From the NCBI GenBank assembly GCA_030602785.1, contig JAUVZB010000023.1, positions 1 to 36,761 on the forward strand: DNA of 36,761 nucleotides, written 5' to 3'. This document shows, one piece after another, positions 18,934 through 29,979 of this stretch. The notes under the pieces were generated by a model. The model had not been told where the DNA came from and ran no database searches. It saw nothing but the letters and a program-made list of their open reading frames with translations. The stretch comes from Dehalococcoidia bacterium (GTDB lineage Bacteria; Chloroflexota; Dehalococcoidia; GIF9; AB-539-J10). Position 1 is the stretch's first letter. Each line of letters begins with the position of its first letter. Position numbers and translations under genes: made by a program.

Positions 18934-19683
18934 ATGTCAGGACATTCTAAGTGGTCGACGATTAAGCGACAGAAAGGTGTTGCGGATGCTCGCCGCGGAC
19001 AGGTGTTCACGAAGATAGCGCGCGAGATTATGGTAGCCGTTCGCCAGGGAGGACCCAGCCTGGACGCCAACTACCAGCTCCGCCTGGCAATCCAGAAGGC
19101 GAAGGACAGCAACATGCCTTCAGATAACGTTGACCGCGCCATCAAGCGGGCCACGGGTGGTGGCGACGGGGCGAGCCTCGTCGAATTCAAACTTGAGGGC
19201 TACGGGCCTAACGGGGTTGCTGTGCTCGTGGAGGCGTTGAGTGACAATCGGAACCGTACGGTTCAGGAGGTCAGAAGCAGATTGGTGCGACATGGGGGCA
19301 GCCTTGGCGAGACAGGCTGCGTCGCGTGGATGTTTGATACCTATGGCCTCATTTCAATCGAGACGGATGAGGGCAAGGCGGACGAGGTAGCGCTACAGGC
19401 CATCGATGCCGGTGCGGACGATGTGAAGACCGATGGCGGCTATGTTGAAGTGTATACCGCCCCATCCAAGTTGGAGGAAGTCAGGAAGGTGCTTGAGCAG
19501 GACTTCCGCGTGGTGTCGGCGGAGGTCTCTTTGATTCCCAAGATGCCGGTCATGTTGGAAGAGTCGAAGGCGCTGCAGATACTCCACTTCATTGACCAGA
19601 TTGAGCAACTTGACGACGTGCAGCGTGTGTACTCGAACGCTGACTTCCCGGACTCCGCTCTGGAGAAGATGGGGCAGGCATAG
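18934..19683 (+). CDS. yebC: YebC/PmpR-family protein
   Basis: A 249-residue protein with the full family pattern: SGHSKWSTIKRQKGVADARRG at the start, FTKIAREI, NMPSDNVDRAIKRATGG and EGYGPNGVAV. YebC-family proteins are described as transcriptional regulators and, more recently, as factors that relieve ribosome stalling at proline-rich stretches; which role applies here cannot be told from sequence. A GAGGGAAG ribosome site precedes the ATG. It heads a repair operon with ruvC starting 4 nt after its stop, a very common arrangement. Confidence 0.96.
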   Translation: MSGHSKWSTIKRQKGVADARRGQVFTKIAREIMVAVRQGGPSLDANYQLRLAIQKAKDSNMPSDNVDRAIKRATGGGDGASLVEFKLEGYGPNGVAVLVEALSDNRNRTVQEVRSRLVRHGGSLGETGCVAWMFDTYGLISIETDEGKADEVALQAIDAGADDVKTDGGYVEVYTAPSKLEEVRKVLEQDFRVVSAEVSLIPKMPVMLEESKALQILHFIDQIEQLDDVQRVYSNADFPDSALEKMGQA

Positions 19684-19687
19684 CGGG

Positions 19688-20185
19688 ATGCGCGTCCTCG
19701 GCATTGATCCGGGTACCGTGATGACAGGGTACGGGGTTGTTGAGGGTTCAGCCAATGTGCGGCTCGTCGACTGTGGGACGCTTCGCTTCTCCTCCCGTGT
19801 CCCGATTGAACGCAGGCTCTGGTCGATATTCGAAGGCATCTGCGGTCTCATCGAGTCCCACCAGCCGGACGAGGTTGCTATCGAGGAGCCGTTTGTCGGC
19901 ATCAACGTCAGGTCGGCGTTCATGATTGGACGAGCCCAGGCTGTGGCCGTACTTGCAGCGGCGCGCTCTGGTCTGCCCACCGCGTACTACTCGCCCGCGG
20001 AGGTGAAACGGCAGGTCAGCGGCTATGGCCGTAGCGACAAGGACCAGGTCCGCACGATGGTGATGCTGGAGCTGGGGGCCAGAGACAACACTCTCGGAAC
20101 TGACGCCACAGACGCGCTCGCAATTGCTCTATGTCATATCCAGCGCAAAGCAGCGCTGGAGCGCCTGGGAGGAGGGGAACTGTGA
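19688..20185 (+). CDS. ruvC: Holliday junction resolvase RuvC
   Basis: A 165-residue RNase H-fold endonuclease that cuts Holliday junctions symmetrically. Catalytic acidic residues are in place: D7 (GIDPG), E66/E67 (VAIEEPF), D139 and D142 (GTDATDALA). Start ATG 19688 begins exactly at the first strand (MRVLGIDPG); the frame is open upstream but reads through yebC. Its stop overlaps the ruvA GTG by 4 nt. ruvB is not in the window. Confidence 0.96.
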   Translation: MRVLGIDPGTVMTGYGVVEGSANVRLVDCGTLRFSSRVPIERRLWSIFEGICGLIESHQPDEVAIEEPFVGINVRSAFMIGRAQAVAVLAAARSGLPTAYYSPAEVKRQVSGYGRSDKDQVRTMVMLELGARDNTLGTDATDALAIALCHIQRKAALERLGGGEL

Positions 20186-20763
20186 TTGCGTTCCTGGACG
20201 GGATTGTCGACTTCAAGGGAGCTGACTATGTTGTCCTCAATGTGGGAGGCATAGGTTTTCAGGTTCGCGCCGCATCACGTACCATCGACGAGATTGGCGA
20301 ACCGGGCGCGCGCGCTGTCCTTCAAACATGTCTTCTTGTGCGTGATGACTCTCCCGTTCTCTATGGCTTCGGCTCGAACGAAGAGTTGGCGCTGTTTCAG
20401 GATCTCATATCTGTGAGTGGAGTCGGGCCCAGAGTCGGCCTGATGCTGCTGGGGGCTTTCAAGCCCGAGGACCTCGCTGCGGCTATCGTACGGGGCGACA
20501 CCGAGCTGATATCGCGGGTTCCGGGCGTTGGAAAGAGGATCGCGGCCAGGCTGTGTGTTGAGCTGGGGGCAAAGATGGAGCGCTACGTGAAGGGCGTTGC
20601 CGGCGCGGCGCGAGAGGGTGATGGCGAGCTGGTTGCGGCGCTTACGGCGCTGGGCTACTCACTCCGAGAGGCTGTGGACGCTGCACATTCGATGGGAGGG
20701 GGACATGACCTCTCTCTTGAAGAGCGGCTGAAGCTCGCGTTGCGGTCTCTTGCGAGTCGCTGA
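20182..20763 (+). CDS. ruvA: Holliday junction branch migration protein RuvA
   Basis: A 193-residue junction-binding subunit that loads RuvB. The OB domain fills about 1-65, followed by two helix-hairpin-helix motifs ([13 protein letters not shown] and [13 protein letters not shown]) and a C-terminal RuvB-binding domain ([15 protein letters not shown]). GTG 20182 is chosen: it overlaps the ruvC stop (GTGA), has GGAGG upstream and gives the family N-terminus (VIAFLDGIV). Confidence 0.95.
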
Positions 20764-20824
20764 GAGCCACTACCCTGGCGGTGCGTTACCCATGGGTGTC
20801 CCTGTGTGTGGCTCGCGCAGTAAC

Positions 20825-22813
20825 ATGGACCGTGAGTTTGAGATAACGTCGGACCTGCGCCTCACGGGTGATCAGCCCCAGGCCGTTGATCTCCTGATGG
20901 ACGGGTTGTCCCACGGATTCACCGGGCAGACGCTGCTTGGCGTCACTGGCAGTGGCAAGACATTCACCGTGGCCAATGTCATTGCGCGCGCACAGCGTCC
21001 CACCCTGGTCATGTGTCACAACAAGACGCTCGCCGCTCAGCTGGCTGCCGAGTTCCAGGAGTTCTTCCAGCGCAACGCCGTCGGTTACTTCGTGAGCTAC
21101 TACGACTACTACCAGCCCGAAGCGTACATCCCGAGCACCGACACGTACATCGAGAAAGAGACGGATATCAACGACGAGATTGACCGTCTGCGTCACGCCG
21201 CGACGAGGTCCCTGTTTGAGCGGCGCGACGTTGTCATCGTTGCTTCCGTTTCCTGCATCTACTCACTTGGTTCGCCGGACGAATACAAGAGCTTCGCGCT
21301 TCCCGTGGTTCGCGGGGAGGCGGCCGGGCTGCATCGCACAGTCCGGAAGTTGATCGGAATGCAGTACGAGCGCAACGACATTGATTTGTGGCGAGGTAGA
21401 TTTCGGGTTCGTGGGGACACGCTCGAACTGTATCCCGCCTACGAAGAAACAGCGGTGCGGGTCGAGTTCTGGGGAGACGTGGTGGAAAGAATCACCGAGG
21501 TCGACCCGGTCACAGGCGAACTCCTCTCAGAGCTCGCCAGAGTGGACATCTATCCCGCGAAGCATTTCGTGACTCCGGAGGACAAGCTGCAGGCAGCGAT
21601 GGGAGACATCCGCAGCGAACTCCAGGAGCACCTTGAGGAACTCCGCGCGCAGGGCAAAGTGCTGGAAGCTCAGCGGCTTGAATCCCGGACGAAATACGAC
21701 CTCGAGATGCTTGGGGAGGTTGGCTACTGTTCTGGCGTTGAGAACTACTCACGTCATCTGCAGCAACGGGCCCCGGGAAGTACCCCGTGGACTCTCATTG
21801 ACTACTTCCCAGCTGACTTCCTGCTGATTATCGACGAGTCGCACATGACGCTGCCGCAGATACGGGGCATGTATCATGGCGACCTTGCGCGTAAGCAGGT
21901 CCTTGTGGAGCACGGTTTTCGCCTGCCATCGGCTCTGGACAACAGGCCTCTCAATTTCGAGGAGTTCAGCAGCCACATCAACCAGGTCATCTACCTGTCC
22001 GCCACTCCACGCCAGTACGAACTGGAGCGCAGTTCGCGTGTCGTGCAACAGCTGATACGCCCGACCGGCCTGCTGGAACCGACCGTAGAGGTAAGACCCA
22101 CGGCCGGTCAGATTGACGACCTCATGGGCGAGATTCGGGCGCGTGTTGTGGAGGGGGAACGCTGCCTCGTCACCACACTCACCAAGAGGATGGCCGAGGA
22201 CCTGAGTGAGTACCTGGCGGAACTGAACATCAAGGCTCACTACCTGCACTCGGAAATCGACACCCTCGAACGCGTGCAGATACTCCGTGATCTTCGCCTG
22301 GGGGTGTACGACGTGGTTGTCGGCATCAACCTGCTGAGAGAGGGGCTCGACCTGCCTGAGGTAAGTCTCGTGGCCATACTGGATGCCGACAAAGAGGGCT
22401 TCCTTCGGTCAGCTGAGGCGCTCGTACAGACCATCGGACGGTCAGCGCGGCACGTCAATGCCCACGCCATTCTGTATGCGGACACAGTAACAGGTTCCAT
22501 GCAGACCGCGATGGAAGAGACTGCGAGGCGACGTACGGCGCAGGAGGAGTACAACAGCCGGCACGGAATCACACCGCAGAGTGTATCCAAGGCCATTCGG
22601 GATATTGCGCGGCAGGTACAGGAGGTGGCGGAGCCACTGCGGGCGTATGGTGATCAGCCCGCTACCCCTCGCGAGCTGAACGCGATGTTGAAAGCGCTTG
22701 AACGTGAGATGAAACGGGCCGCCGGCAGCCTTGAGTTTGAGAAAGCCGCTCTCTTGCGCGACCGAATCGGCGAGTTGCGCAAGGAGTCCCTGGGATTGCA
22801 CCTGAGAAGCTGA
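20825..22813 (+). CDS. uvrB: Excinuclease ABC subunit B
   Basis: A 662-residue helicase-like damage-verification subunit of nucleotide excision repair. Walker A GVTGSGKT (39-46), the damage-probing beta-hairpin block [17 protein letters not shown], and the C-terminal UVR domain ([18 protein letters not shown]) that contacts UvrC are present. The ATG at 20825 fits the family start; upstream in-frame TTG/ATG codons (20750, 20792) would add an unusual leader. 61 nt after ruvA, same operon. Confidence 0.96.
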
Positions 22814-25360: not shown

Positions 25361-25633
25361 CTAGTACCTGATCTCAAACAGCTGATATTCCGTGCCATCC
25401 TTGTCGGAGTCCCAATCGACTGTGATGTCGGCGACGCGCGCGGCGGGAGGGCCTTCCCGAAGGCAGGCCAAGTCTGCCCGCAACTGGTGACTGGTTCCCT
25501 GTGCGCGGATCTCTACCGAATCGCCCTCCTGCGTGTTCCGCGCAAATCCCACTACCCCCAGCCGAATCGCCGTGGTCTTCGCGAACCACCTGAAGTTCAC
25601 GCCCTGAACTCGCCCGTGTACCAACACCCGCAT
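25361..25633 (-). CDS. acyP: Acylphosphatase
   Basis: A 90-residue enzyme hydrolysing acyl phosphates such as carbamoyl or 1,3-bisphosphoglycerate. The catalytic arginine is R15 in GRVQGVNFR and the asparagine N33 in FARNTQEGDSVEI; length is typical. The start ATG 25633 gives the standard N-terminus; longer frames upstream look non-coding. GAAAGG lies about 20 nt before it. Confidence 0.93.
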   Translation of the reverse strand: MRVLVHGRVQGVNFRWFAKTTAIRLGVVGFARNTQEGDSVEIRAQGTSHQLRADLACLREGPPAARVADITVDWDSDKDGTEYQLFEIRY

Positions 25634-25755
25634 CGTTTGCGTTGGTCCGCGTGCTACCTTTCTTCCGCTGTCAGACACCTGCGTGCGCCCGCGGCAAACG
25701 TTGCCCGGCAAGAATGCTCCCCGTGCCCACCGTCCGCCTGCCGCTGGCGCAATTC

Positions 25756-25902
25756 CTACTGGACACTCTCGTCTTCGGTCTTCCGCCGCCTTTTCACGCG
25801 TTCAGGGTCGGTAGTGGGCTCGAGCTCGGTGATGACGGACGGCTTCTTCTCATCTCTCTTCGGTTTCTTGGATTCCCGGCGTGCCAAATCTCGTTTCCCC
25901 AT
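25756..25902 (-). CDS. Small Lys/Arg-rich protein coupled to rnc
   Basis: A 48-residue open frame: MGKRDLARRESKKPKRD at the start and ERVKRRRKTEDESVQ at the end. About a third of residues are Lys or Arg, with acidic residues mixed in, so it is probably disordered and may bind nucleic acid. AGAGAGGTG, which overlaps the last codons of rnc, forms a good ribosome site; the ATG lies 3 nt after the rnc stop. The combination of a good site, coupling and sensible composition supports a real gene. No family is recognised with certainty. Confidence 0.65.
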   Translation of the reverse strand: MGKRDLARRESKKPKRDEKKPSVITELEPTTDPERVKRRRKTEDESVQ

Positions 25903-25905
25903 TGT

Positions 25906-26598
25906 TCACACCTCTCTTGAGCGCAGTGCTGCCAACGCACACCGTGCGGCGGCCGTCTCGGCTGCCTTCTTGCTATGCCCGGTTCCCTCTCCGATGGCCT
26001 TTCCGTGCAGGAGAACAACCGCTGTGAACCGCTTGTTGTGGTCCGGTCCTGTACTCTCCAGCTCATACCGTGGCAGCGGGTCGTCTTGAGCCTGCAGGCA
26101 CTCCTGCAGCAGGGCTTTGTAGTTCGGCAGCGAGCCATTCAGCAGCACACTGGCAAGCTGGTCTCCCAGGTGACGGAGCACGAACGCACGTGCTACCGCG
26201 TGTCCCTGATCCAGATAGATGGCCCCTACGACGGCCTCAAACGCGTCGGCAAGATTTCGGTCCTTGTCCCGCCCACCGGTAGCCTCTTCTCCATGTCCCA
26301 TGAGAATGCACTCGCCCAGTGCGAGAGCCCGCGCAGCGGTGGCAAGGCTCTCACGTCGCACCAGAGATGCTCTTACCCCGGTCAGGGTACCCTCGGCTTT
26401 CGAAGGCAGGCTCGCGTACAACTTCTCAGCCATTACCATGCCAAGTACCGCATCGCCGAGGAACTCCATCCTCTCGTTGCTGGCGGACTGATTCCCATGG
26501 TTCTCGTTGATGTAGCTCCCGTGAACCAGCGCCTGAGAAAGCAGACCCCTGTCGCGGAAGACTACACCGAGCCTGATCTCACACTTGCTGATTTCCAT
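25906..26598 (-). CDS. rnc: Ribonuclease III
   Basis: A 230-residue double-strand-specific RNase for rRNA and mRNA processing. The signature NERMEFLGDAVLG has the catalytic acids E42, E45 and D49; a second set lies in ADAFEAVVGAIYLD. The C-terminal dsRNA-binding domain runs about 155-225 (NYKALLQE through KKAAETAAARCAL). The ATG at 26598 matches the family start; the frame stays open upstream into the J-protein gene. 40 nt after the J-domain gene, in one operon. Confidence 0.96.
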   Translation of the reverse strand: MEISKCEIRLGVVFRDRGLLSQALVHGSYINENHGNQSASNERMEFLGDAVLGMVMAEKLYASLPSKAEGTLTGVRASLVRRESLATAARALALGECILMGHGEEATGGRDKDRNLADAFEAVVGAIYLDQGHAVARAFVLRHLGDQLASVLLNGSLPNYKALLQECLQAQDDPLPRYELESTGPDHNKRFTAVVLLHGKAIGEGTGHSKKAAETAAARCALAALRSREV

Positions 26599-26638: not shown

Positions 26639-27481
26639 TCACCAGGTGCGGCGACCGTCGGCCACCCGCTCGATGGCGCTCTCAACAAGTTGTTGCGCCG
26701 TGCGTTGGGGAAGCCCGTCGCGCGTGAGTTCGTCAATCACGAGTTGTCGCGCTGCGATGATTTTCTCAGCCACCACTTTTGTGCCGCGGTCCAGTGAGGC
26801 AGTCAAGTCGACATGTGCAGGTGACAGCCGATGCATGTTCCGCTCGCTATCGCCCGTCCGGCGCCTGATTCGCTCAAGCGCGGAGTCGACAAGCTCAACG
26901 GCCACACTCCTCTGCAATCCATCCTTGACCAGTTCGTCGGCCAGGCGGTCACGCACCGCGCCAGCCTTCTCCTCCACGATTTGCATGGCTTCATCGTACG
27001 ACGCCCCGGCGTCGAGGTGGGCGTTGGTGGCCCGGCCGCCAGTGCGGTCAGGTGTGTTGCCTGCGCCGACCATTCCTTTCAGGGCTTTGTTGACCAGCCC
27101 CGTCGCAATATCCTTTGCCAGTCCATCTTTCGCGACTTCGTCGATGACCCGCTGTCGCGCCACGCTGACTTTCCGCGAGATGACTTCAAGCATGTGCTCC
27201 AGAGGAGCATCCGGCTCCACATTGTCATTGCTGAAGCGCACCGCGAAGTCTCGATCCACGCGGTTTGCCGGCGTGTTTGCAGAAACCCGGCGCACGTTCC
27301 CACGCACTGCTTGATATGCGATATTGAGCCCTGCCATCTTCGCCATCGCGTCAGGCGCTTCGGAACGGTCGGGGTGATACTTCTTCGCGAGCGCCCTGTA
27401 CGCCGCGGCTATCACCTCCGGCTCTGCCTTTGGGCTCACTTGGAGTGTCTCGTAGTGCTTGTTCCGATCGTTGTCTGCCAT
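26639..27481 (-). CDS. J-domain protein with three 68-residue-spaced repeats
   Basis: A 280-residue protein. The J domain fills about 8-60 with the essential HPD (36-38) in AKKYHPDRSEAPDAMAKM, so it should stimulate a DnaK-type ATPase. No G/F, zinc-finger or client-binding domain of DnaJ follows. Instead a helical motif occurs three times (about 94-138, 162-206, 230-274); the landmarks K104/K172/K240 and DGL at 119/187/255 are each exactly 68 residues apart. Consensus: K-x(3-5)-R-x2-(V/L)-x-DE-(V/L)-x2-DGL-x6-(L)-V-x2-A-(L/I). Spacers differ between copies. Ribosome site GAGGTC 8 nt before the ATG. First gene of an operon with rnc. Function beyond co-chaperone is unknown. Confidence 0.85.
   Translation of the reverse strand: MADNDRNKHYETLQVSPKAEPEVIAAAYRALAKKYHPDRSEAPDAMAKMAGLNIAYQAVRGNVRRVSANTPANRVDRDFAVRFSNDNVEPDAPLEHMLEVISRKVSVARQRVIDEVAKDGLAKDIATGLVNKALKGMVGAGNTPDRTGGRATNAHLDAGASYDEAMQIVEEKAGAVRDRLADELVKDGLQRSVAVELVDSALERIRRRTGDSERNMHRLSPAHVDLTASLDRGTKVVAEKIIAARQLVIDELTRDGLPQRTAQQLVESAIERVADGRRTW
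26660..27202 (-). repeat. Coding triplication, 204-bp period
   Basis: The C-terminal two thirds of the J-domain gene contain three diverged copies of a 45-residue helical motif with a 68-residue (204-bp) period. Similarity is at protein level; DNA copies have drifted, so the duplication is old. Confidence 0.7.
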
Positions 27482-27528: not shown

Positions 27529-27557
27529 ATGATACCCCGCAAATCGCAGGATGACTA
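27529..27557 (-). promoter_or_regulatory. Candidate promoter of the J-domain protein / rnc operon
   Basis: Minus strand: TAGTCA (27557-27552), 17-nt spacer, TATCAT (27534-27529), about 48 nt before the start codon. Confidence 0.45.
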
Positions 27558-27662: not shown

Positions 27663-27736
27663 TGGGGATTAGTCTAACGGTAGGACGGCTGACTCTGGAT
27701 CAGTTAGTCCAGGTTCGAATCCTGGATCCCCAGCCA
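27663..27736 (+). tRNA. tRNA-Gln (anticodon CTG)
   Basis: A 74-nt cloverleaf with encoded CCA. Acceptor TGGGGAT pairs with ATCCCCA; anticodon arm GCTGA/TCAGT (one G-T pair) encloses loop CTCTGGA with anticodon CTG at 27695-27697; T arm CCAGG-TTCGAAT-CCTGG is perfect. The U1-A72 type start and G discriminator match bacterial tRNA-Gln. It reads CAG codons. Confidence 0.95.
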
Positions 27737-27870: not shown

Positions 27871-28296
27871 ATGGACGCGTCAGCAATCATCTATCAGGTG
27901 TGGAGTTCCTATTCTTCGGGGTGGGGCCTCTGCGTCTCGGCAGGGCTGCATGCCTGGCTGGCGCTCTGCCTGATGCTCATCGCACGCAAGAATGGTGTGG
28001 CCGGGGCATGGACCGCCTGGCTGCCCATCGCTAACTTCAGGCTGATGTGCATTGTGGGCAAGTCTCCGGTGTCCTGTTTCTGGGCATTCCTCATACCGGT
28101 TGTGGCTCTGGCTGTGGGCGTGTTTGTCTGGCTCCCCCTGTGGATCATGGCATGGCTGGGGATATGGGCGGTTGTCTGGGCGCTGGCGTGGGCGCGGATT
28201 TCGGCCTCGAGGGGAAGACCGGCTGCCTACGGACTCCTTATCGTTGTCCCTGTGCTGAACCTGGTGCTGCTCGGCAACCTGGCCTTCGGCGACTAG
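27871..28296 (+). CDS. Small multi-pass membrane protein, DUF5684-like
   Basis: A 141-residue protein with about four membrane segments (near 18-38, 68-88, 90-108, 118-138). The motifs WLPIANFRLMCIVGK, ARISASRGRP and VVPVLNLVLLGNLAFG resemble the repeated P-x-x-N pattern of DUF5684-type proteins of unknown function. The ribosome site is weak, but the promoter and composition support the gene. It converges on the thioredoxin gene with a 19-nt gap. Confidence 0.65.
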   Translation: MDASAIIYQVWSSYSSGWGLCVSAGLHAWLALCLMLIARKNGVAGAWTAWLPIANFRLMCIVGKSPVSCFWAFLIPVVALAVGVFVWLPLWIMAWLGIWAVVWALAWARISASRGRPAAYGLLIVVPVLNLVLLGNLAFGD

Positions 28297-29118: not shown

Positions 29119-29979
29119 CTACCGGCCAGCTCGCAACGCACGCGCACGCTGGAAGCCAATGAATGAATACGCTCCGGGGGCCACGCGCTCGATACACGCG
29201 AACGGCCGCATCTGTTCACCGGGGCGTCCAATGTCGGCATCGCGTAGTGTCAATTCAGTTTCCAGGGCTCCAGGCAAGTTGTAGGCTTCCGGCATGAGTT
29301 CGTCGCGCAGTATCTGAACTATGTCGTCCAGTCCGAACAGTTTGCGTCCTCTGGATGCCAGAACGAGACTCGCAATGTAGGGCCCCCACTGCCTGAAAGC
29401 GTAGGTCTCAGCGAAGGCGGCCTTTTCCTCCGGGTCTGTGATATGGGCATCTCCCAGCCTCTTCTTTGCCTGTGCCACGACATTCGGGCTTTCCGGTGGA
29501 GGGACGGCTGCGGCGCCGATGGGCACGGCCGCGGACGTCAGTTCATGGGACCCGTTTGGTCCCGAACCGTTGTCGCGCTCCTGTTCTGCGCCAATCTCCC
29601 TCAGACGTTCCATGACCCAGAGGCGAGCCAGCGTCTGGGGCGATTCATCAAGGTCCTTGGCCAGGCGCCGGAGTTGTTCCGCCCTTGTCACCGGTATCTC
29701 GATACGCAGGAGCACGGAATCCGGTCCTGCCGCAGCCCCGGCCTCGAAATCCCCATCGAGCCGGGAGTTCTTTGTCGAGTCTGCCTCGCCAGTCTTGCCC
29801 AGCATCCCGAGGACGCTCCTGAACATGTACTGGTCGACATCCGGTCCTCCCGGCGATTGCCCTCCAGGGGTTGGTCCCGGTCTGCCTCTCGGCCCCACAC
29901 GACCGTTGTCGAGGAACTCAGGCGGGAGGTCATATGGACCTCTCTGCGGCCTTCTCTTGCGTTGTCCTTTGCCAAACAT
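29119..29979 (-). CDS. Unknown protein with ribbon-helix-helix-like segment
   Basis: A 286-residue protein not recognised as a whole. Residues 1-48 are basic and rich in Gly and Pro (disordered). Residues about 86-130 (VLLRIEIPVTRAEQLRRLAKDL, then SPQTLARLWVMERLREI) look like a ribbon-helix-helix DNA-binding unit. A second linker (132-178) is low-complexity. Residues about 180-276 form a compact domain (FGLDDIVQILRDEL, IERVAPGAYSFIGF) that resembles a winged-helix in pattern only. It could be a DNA-binding regulator or nucleoid protein. GAGAGG lies about 11 nt before the ATG. Confidence 0.65.
   Translation of the reverse strand: MFGKGQRKRRPQRGPYDLPPEFLDNGRVGPRGRPGPTPGGQSPGGPDVDQYMFRSVLGMLGKTGEADSTKNSRLDGDFEAGAAAGPDSVLLRIEIPVTRAEQLRRLAKDLDESPQTLARLWVMERLREIGAEQERDNGSGPNGSHELTSAAVPIGAAAVPPPESPNVVAQAKKRLGDAHITDPEEKAAFAETYAFRQWGPYIASLVLASRGRKLFGLDDIVQILRDELMPEAYNLPGALETELTLRDADIGRPGEQMRPFACIERVAPGAYSFIGFQRARALRAGR

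Follow-up and report, generated by a model that had tools for sequence, protein, structure and literature searches.

A lineage-specific J-domain protein of Dehalococcoidia carries three conserved tandem units at a fixed spacing

The 36,761-nucleotide stretch of Dehalococcoidia DNA analysed here (the window, contig C49 of genome G000, a 2.57 Mb assembly in 141 contigs) encodes a protein in which an N-terminal J domain is followed by a tail of three tandem units, set exactly 68 residues apart. The protein belongs to a well-known kind, the J-domain adaptors that act as DnaK helpers. Its undescribed part, as far as our searches reached, is the tail with its three evenly spaced modules, each predicted to form two helices. 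We found the protein to be real, conserved and specific to its lineage, and we lean towards reading it as a class C J-domain protein that serves as a dedicated DnaK adaptor, with tandem hairpins that would either bind a partner or self-associate.

The J domain with its HPD motif had been recognised in the original prediction, made from the DNA letters without database searches, and the profile search bears this out: PF00226 scores 47.7 bits, well above its gathering cut-off of 27.8 (Table 1). The HPD is invariant in all seven proteins compared, and the same genome contains one DnaK gene. The DnaJ and CbpA models match the J-domain part only, far below their cut-offs, and the Pfam and NCBIfam models detected neither the C-terminal β-sandwich substrate-binding domains of class A and B J-proteins such as DnaJ and CbpA nor the zinc finger of class A. 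Similarly, the HscB model TIGR00714 reached 21.3 bits against a cut-off of 46.75, and did so within the J region only.

Table 1 Features of the J-protein gene and its surroundings in the window
Feature	Positions	Strand	Residues or description	Evidence and remarks
J-protein gene	26639..27481	(-)	280 aa; J domain and three tandem helical-hairpin units	orthologues found
J domain	27290..27460	(-)	residues 8-64, HPD 36-38	PF00226 E 1.7e-12; HPD; dN/dS
Unit 1	27068..27220	(-)	residues 88-138	dN/dS 0.15
Linker 1	27017..27067	(-)	residues 139-155	17 aa in 7/7 proteins; sequence not conserved
Unit 2	26864..27016	(-)	residues 156-206	dN/dS 0.07; hairpin model pLDDT 86
Linker 2	26813..26863	(-)	residues 207-223	17 aa in 7/7 proteins; final five residues partly conserved
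Unit 3	26660..26812	(-)	residues 224-274	dN/dS 0.11
rnc (RNase III)	25906..26598	(-)		Pfam and synteny; start codon by reading of the sequence
Acylphosphatase gene	25361..25711	(-)	downstream of rnc	PF00708 4.5e-22
Promoter-like site	27529..27557	(-)	48 bp upstream of the J-protein gene	weak; consensus match only

When the tail was aligned with itself, scores of 205 at an offset of 68 residues and 92 at an offset of 136 were obtained, with no more than 31 at any other offset; the top score among 1000 shuffled tails was 56. The landmarks given in the original prediction, a lysine at 104, 172 and 240 and a DGL at 119, 187 and 255, lie exactly where they had been placed. The description of the tail as an exact 68-residue triple repeat holds for the period but not for the sequence of the units, which share only 15, 22 and 19 of 51 residues in pairwise comparison (29-43%). 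Across 18 units, the glycine at the turn is invariant and Ser 6, Arg 22, Ala 39 and Ala 46 are nearly so, and each of the two helices displays a hydrophobic face (columns 7, 11, 14, 18, 21, 25 and 29 on one, 39, 42, 46 and 47 on the other). Overall, the pI of the tail (5.1-7.1) ranges from acidic to near neutral.

Six other proteins contain the complete set of three units and retain the period as well, so that the unit-to-unit spacing equals 68 in 14 of 14 cases. The linkers, always 17 residues long, have little sequence in common over the seven proteins, with identities of 14-19% in linker 1 and 23% in most of linker 2. The distance from the HPD to unit 1, on the other hand, takes four values in these proteins, ranging from 51 to 57.

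An AlphaFold model of a unit segment (67 residues), calculated from an alignment of the three window units only, comprises two helices (13-37 and 42-65) with a mean pLDDT of 86.5, and the unit is accordingly predicted to be a two-helix hairpin that turns at the invariant glycine. A model of the entire protein from its single sequence, although of low quality (mean pLDDT 52.3), shows these two helices in every unit, with mostly unstructured linkers.

No named domain had been recognised for the repeat, and the profile searches agree. The unit matched no Pfam, NCBIfam or PHROG family above cut-off or at a convincing E-value, and its best match among PDB profiles had an E-value of 0.2. The viral structure library gave no match under E 1, the defence-system models gave none, and literature searches returned no paper on J-proteins with such repeats.

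The unit does share a helix-GLPxxxA-helix turn with the hairpin of the P5CR (ProC) dimerisation domain, PF14748. P5CR fills the top VIA ranks for the hairpin model and is also first by Foldseek (E about 1), with VIA Z-scores of 5-7.4 against a helical-model background that reaches 13-14. The hhalign comparison gave a probability of 52% over 24 columns (8% for the best of 20 column shuffles), PF14748 scored 14.4 bits in the protein against a cut-off of 25, and the SGSGPAY motif of P5CR is absent from the unit. The match being weak and short and its Z-scores lying within the helical background, we did not identify the unit with the P5CR hairpin. The Bdr N-terminal model NF040499 aligns with the glycine turn as well, over the same 26 residues, and attains an E-value of 1.9e-6 on the whole protein. 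Its 27.6 bits stay below the curated cut-off of 40, single units score at most 15.7 bits (E 0.02 at best), and the whole-protein score is apparently the total for three homologous units; a Bdr identity was therefore rejected. The HU/IHF hairpin (PF00216), considered because of VIA rows for IHF, had an hhalign probability of 1%, the same as shuffled columns. We take the P5CR and Bdr resemblances as one generic helix-Gly-Leu-helix turn common to many proteins.

Of the six other genomes in the window's genus, here called g1, five contain a full-length orthologue of the J-protein (47-89% identity, the highest value being that of the sister genome G006); in the sixth the orthologue is truncated by a contig end. 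A second genus of the same family is represented by genome G016, in which the protein is complete but for its N-terminus, also cut by a contig end. We built a profile from 18 units and searched 84 genomes of the order, 52 of them in the family. Matches were obtained in all seven genomes of g1 and in G016, and in none of the other 76 genomes, including G028, which belongs to the same genus as G016 and is only 67% complete. Sampling of the class (393 genomes) and the phylum (400 genomes) yielded no convincing unit outside the two genera; a few weak, mostly partial matches there (L122-L126 and L145, E 5e-4 to 0.01) were dismissed as frames of unrelated proteins or frames that look non-coding. A unit separate from a J domain was never found in the genomes searched. 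A single-sequence scan of genome contigs recovered no relative, an alignment scan of genome contigs recovered J domains only, with no unit detected at those loci by the unit HMM, and a tblastn search of plasmids gave no match.

Comparison with G006 yielded dN/dS values of 0.16 for the J domain and 0.07 to 0.15 for the units (Table 1), against 0.76 for the linker between the J domain and unit 1. The two linkers between units stood at about 1.4, a figure calculated from only 5-9 changes per linker. The substitution pattern thus indicates that the units are under purifying selection as strong as that on the J domain, and that the linkers are not. In a tree of 21 units, those of g1 cluster by position (support 100/98, 100/99 and 96/97), which implies that the three units have long been distinct in this genus. 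Since each keeps its positional identity, the three surfaces appear to be maintained and not interchangeable. The units of G016 are far more alike, sharing 35-42 of 51 residues, and its units 1 and 2 show 82% DNA identity across 204 bp. This likeness suggests that the units of G016 were duplicated or homogenised later and independently. Even so, three units at a spacing of 68 are present in both lineages.

The four lengths found between the HPD and unit 1 cannot be explained by fewer than three indels within some 22 residues. Applied to the 34 linker residues, this rate predicts 4.6 indels, or 3.3 for the 24 unconserved ones, and the probability of observing none under equal indel rates is about 0.01 or 0.04, respectively. 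These figures provide moderate evidence that selection acts on the spacing as such; the evidence is weakened by the relatedness of the genomes, and the fixed spacing could partly reflect shared descent.

Taken together, these observations suggest the following mechanism. The N-terminal J domain would recruit DnaK-ATP, judging from the HPD motif and the known biochemistry of J domains. The tail would form three tandem hairpins of about 45 residues each, separated by linkers whose length is fixed at 17 residues while their sequence is free. The three hairpins may each offer a related surface to a single, specific partner protein, or they may associate with those of another chain, and DnaK would thereby be concentrated on that partner. 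A scaffold with three binding sites that recruits DnaK had already been proposed for this gene, and by analogy it remains the best reading; the suggestion that the scaffold might contact a membrane found no indication in its favour. No candidate partner gene was identified, and nothing beyond the local neighbourhood in g1 was seen to accompany the J gene.

It is also conceivable, although we hold it to be rather unlikely, that the hairpins are an oligomerisation device and bind no client at all. Their hydrophobic faces would then pair between or within chains into four- or six-helix bundles, producing a multivalent J-protein. The conserved hydrophobic face on each helix fits this, as a lone two-helix hairpin needs a packing surface, and the closest solved hairpins come from the P5CR dimerisation domain. 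That resemblance is short, however, with Z-scores under 13 that belong to the helical background, and the divergence of the units by position would be unneeded for pure self-association. The data allow no firm choice between partner binding and self-association. A more specific proposal, which we regard as quite unlikely, is that the unit is a new domain in which hairpins turning at a glycine act as a spacing ruler, so that three hairpins held at a fixed distance match three sites on one oligomeric partner and a single J-protein supplies a periodic assembly with DnaK. At the opposite end, the repeats might be a lineage-specific expansion with no precise task, a generic tether or spacer on an otherwise general J-protein. 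Their restriction to two genera and their origin by tandem duplication, together with the likeness of units 1 and 2 in G016, would suit this explanation, but the purifying selection on every unit, the positional identity kept across g1 and the constant spacing make it decidedly improbable.

The gene neighbourhood bears on one further explanation, namely that the protein serves RNA metabolism by bringing DnaK to RNase III or to RNA, as the original prediction had hinted. Immediately upstream of rnc, and in the same orientation, stands the J gene; about 40 bp separate the two, which are probably co-transcribed. Two promoter-like sites were found, against 0.7 expected by chance. In g1, the gene order is ruvC-ruvA-uvrB-pepA and the gene of a 247-aa protein, followed on the opposite strand by acyP-rnc-J and then by two genes, for a hydrophobic protein of 141 aa and a protein of 286 aa. 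Within the limits of the contigs, most genomes of the genus repeat this order, and the J gene directly precedes rnc in every g1 genome whose contig spans the site. The adjacency is nevertheless limited to this genus. G016 has the J gene and rnc on separate contigs, rnc adjoining acyP with no J gene beside it and the J gene having a large convergent gene as its visible neighbour, and in other genera and families various genes stand upstream of rnc, none of them a J gene. The neutral to acidic tail is not suggestive of RNA binding either. The basic small protein cited as a further hint, most likely the ORF at 25794-26138 (-), overlaps rnc out of frame and contains two stops in G006; it is probably spurious, and the third gene of the cluster is the acylphosphatase. 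A role in RNA metabolism is hence highly improbable in our view. RNase III is a possible partner within g1, adjacency being the one observation that speaks for it.

J-proteins decide where Hsp70 acts, and to our knowledge only a minority of bacterial class C J-proteins have a known client. A tail that is compact, three-fold repeated, subject to selection and present in two genera only offers a tractable case for the rise of J-protein specificity, even if its reach is limited to one small clade. G016, with its recently duplicated or homogenised-looking units, and g1, with its diverged positions, may allow two stages of one process to be compared. We consider the fixed spacing combined with free linker sequence to be the most interesting part.

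Among described proteins, AtcJ of Shewanella oneidensis is a short J-protein whose 21-residue C-terminal extension binds AtcC, with a Kd of 7 nM for the whole protein (PMC6715715). Like the window protein, it has a J domain without G/F and zinc-finger regions, a lineage-specific C-terminal part and an operon-like gene cluster. Its tail is only 21 residues long and has AtcC as a known partner, whereas that of the window protein spans about 215 residues in three hairpins and came with no partner gene. HscB/Hsc20 joins a J domain to a helical C-terminal domain that recruits a specific client (PMC9596805). The combination of a J domain with an all-helical module is common to both proteins, but the NCBIfam models of HscB match only the J-domain region of the window protein, whose tail consists of tandem two-helix hairpins. 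Within the same genome, the closest J domain (54% over 52 residues) is that of the paralogue L002 (G000:C138, around 19516-22671), which shares the motif LQV.P.AEPE; its tail is, by reading of the sequence, β-rich with PD40/TolB-like repeats, in contrast to the helical hairpins described here.

Several minor observations were made along the way. In family f1 (L152-L168), an acylphosphatase gene follows rnc in many genera, often with a cysteine-rich, radical-SAM-like gene in between. Upstream of the J gene and on the other strand, the window encodes the 141-aa hydrophobic protein (27871-28296 (+), no Pfam match, 50-56% identity within g1), beside which lies a tRNA-Gln (CTG) gene at 27663-27736. 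The 286-aa protein (29119-29979 (-)) also has no Pfam match and is 48-51% identical within g1. As for other J-like proteins, L016, from another family of the order, has the J motif of L002 and a different β-rich tail. L003, on a 3.3 kb contig (G000:C9), is a 116-aa protein with a J-like end carrying HSD instead of HPD; the other frames of this contig look unlike the rest of the genome, and it may be a mobile element or a binning contaminant. Finally, behind the J domain of L004 (G000:C81) and L018 (G012) come zinc-ribbon-like cysteine clusters together with a hydrophobic stretch, and the C-terminal region of L018 resembles a CAP/SCP domain.
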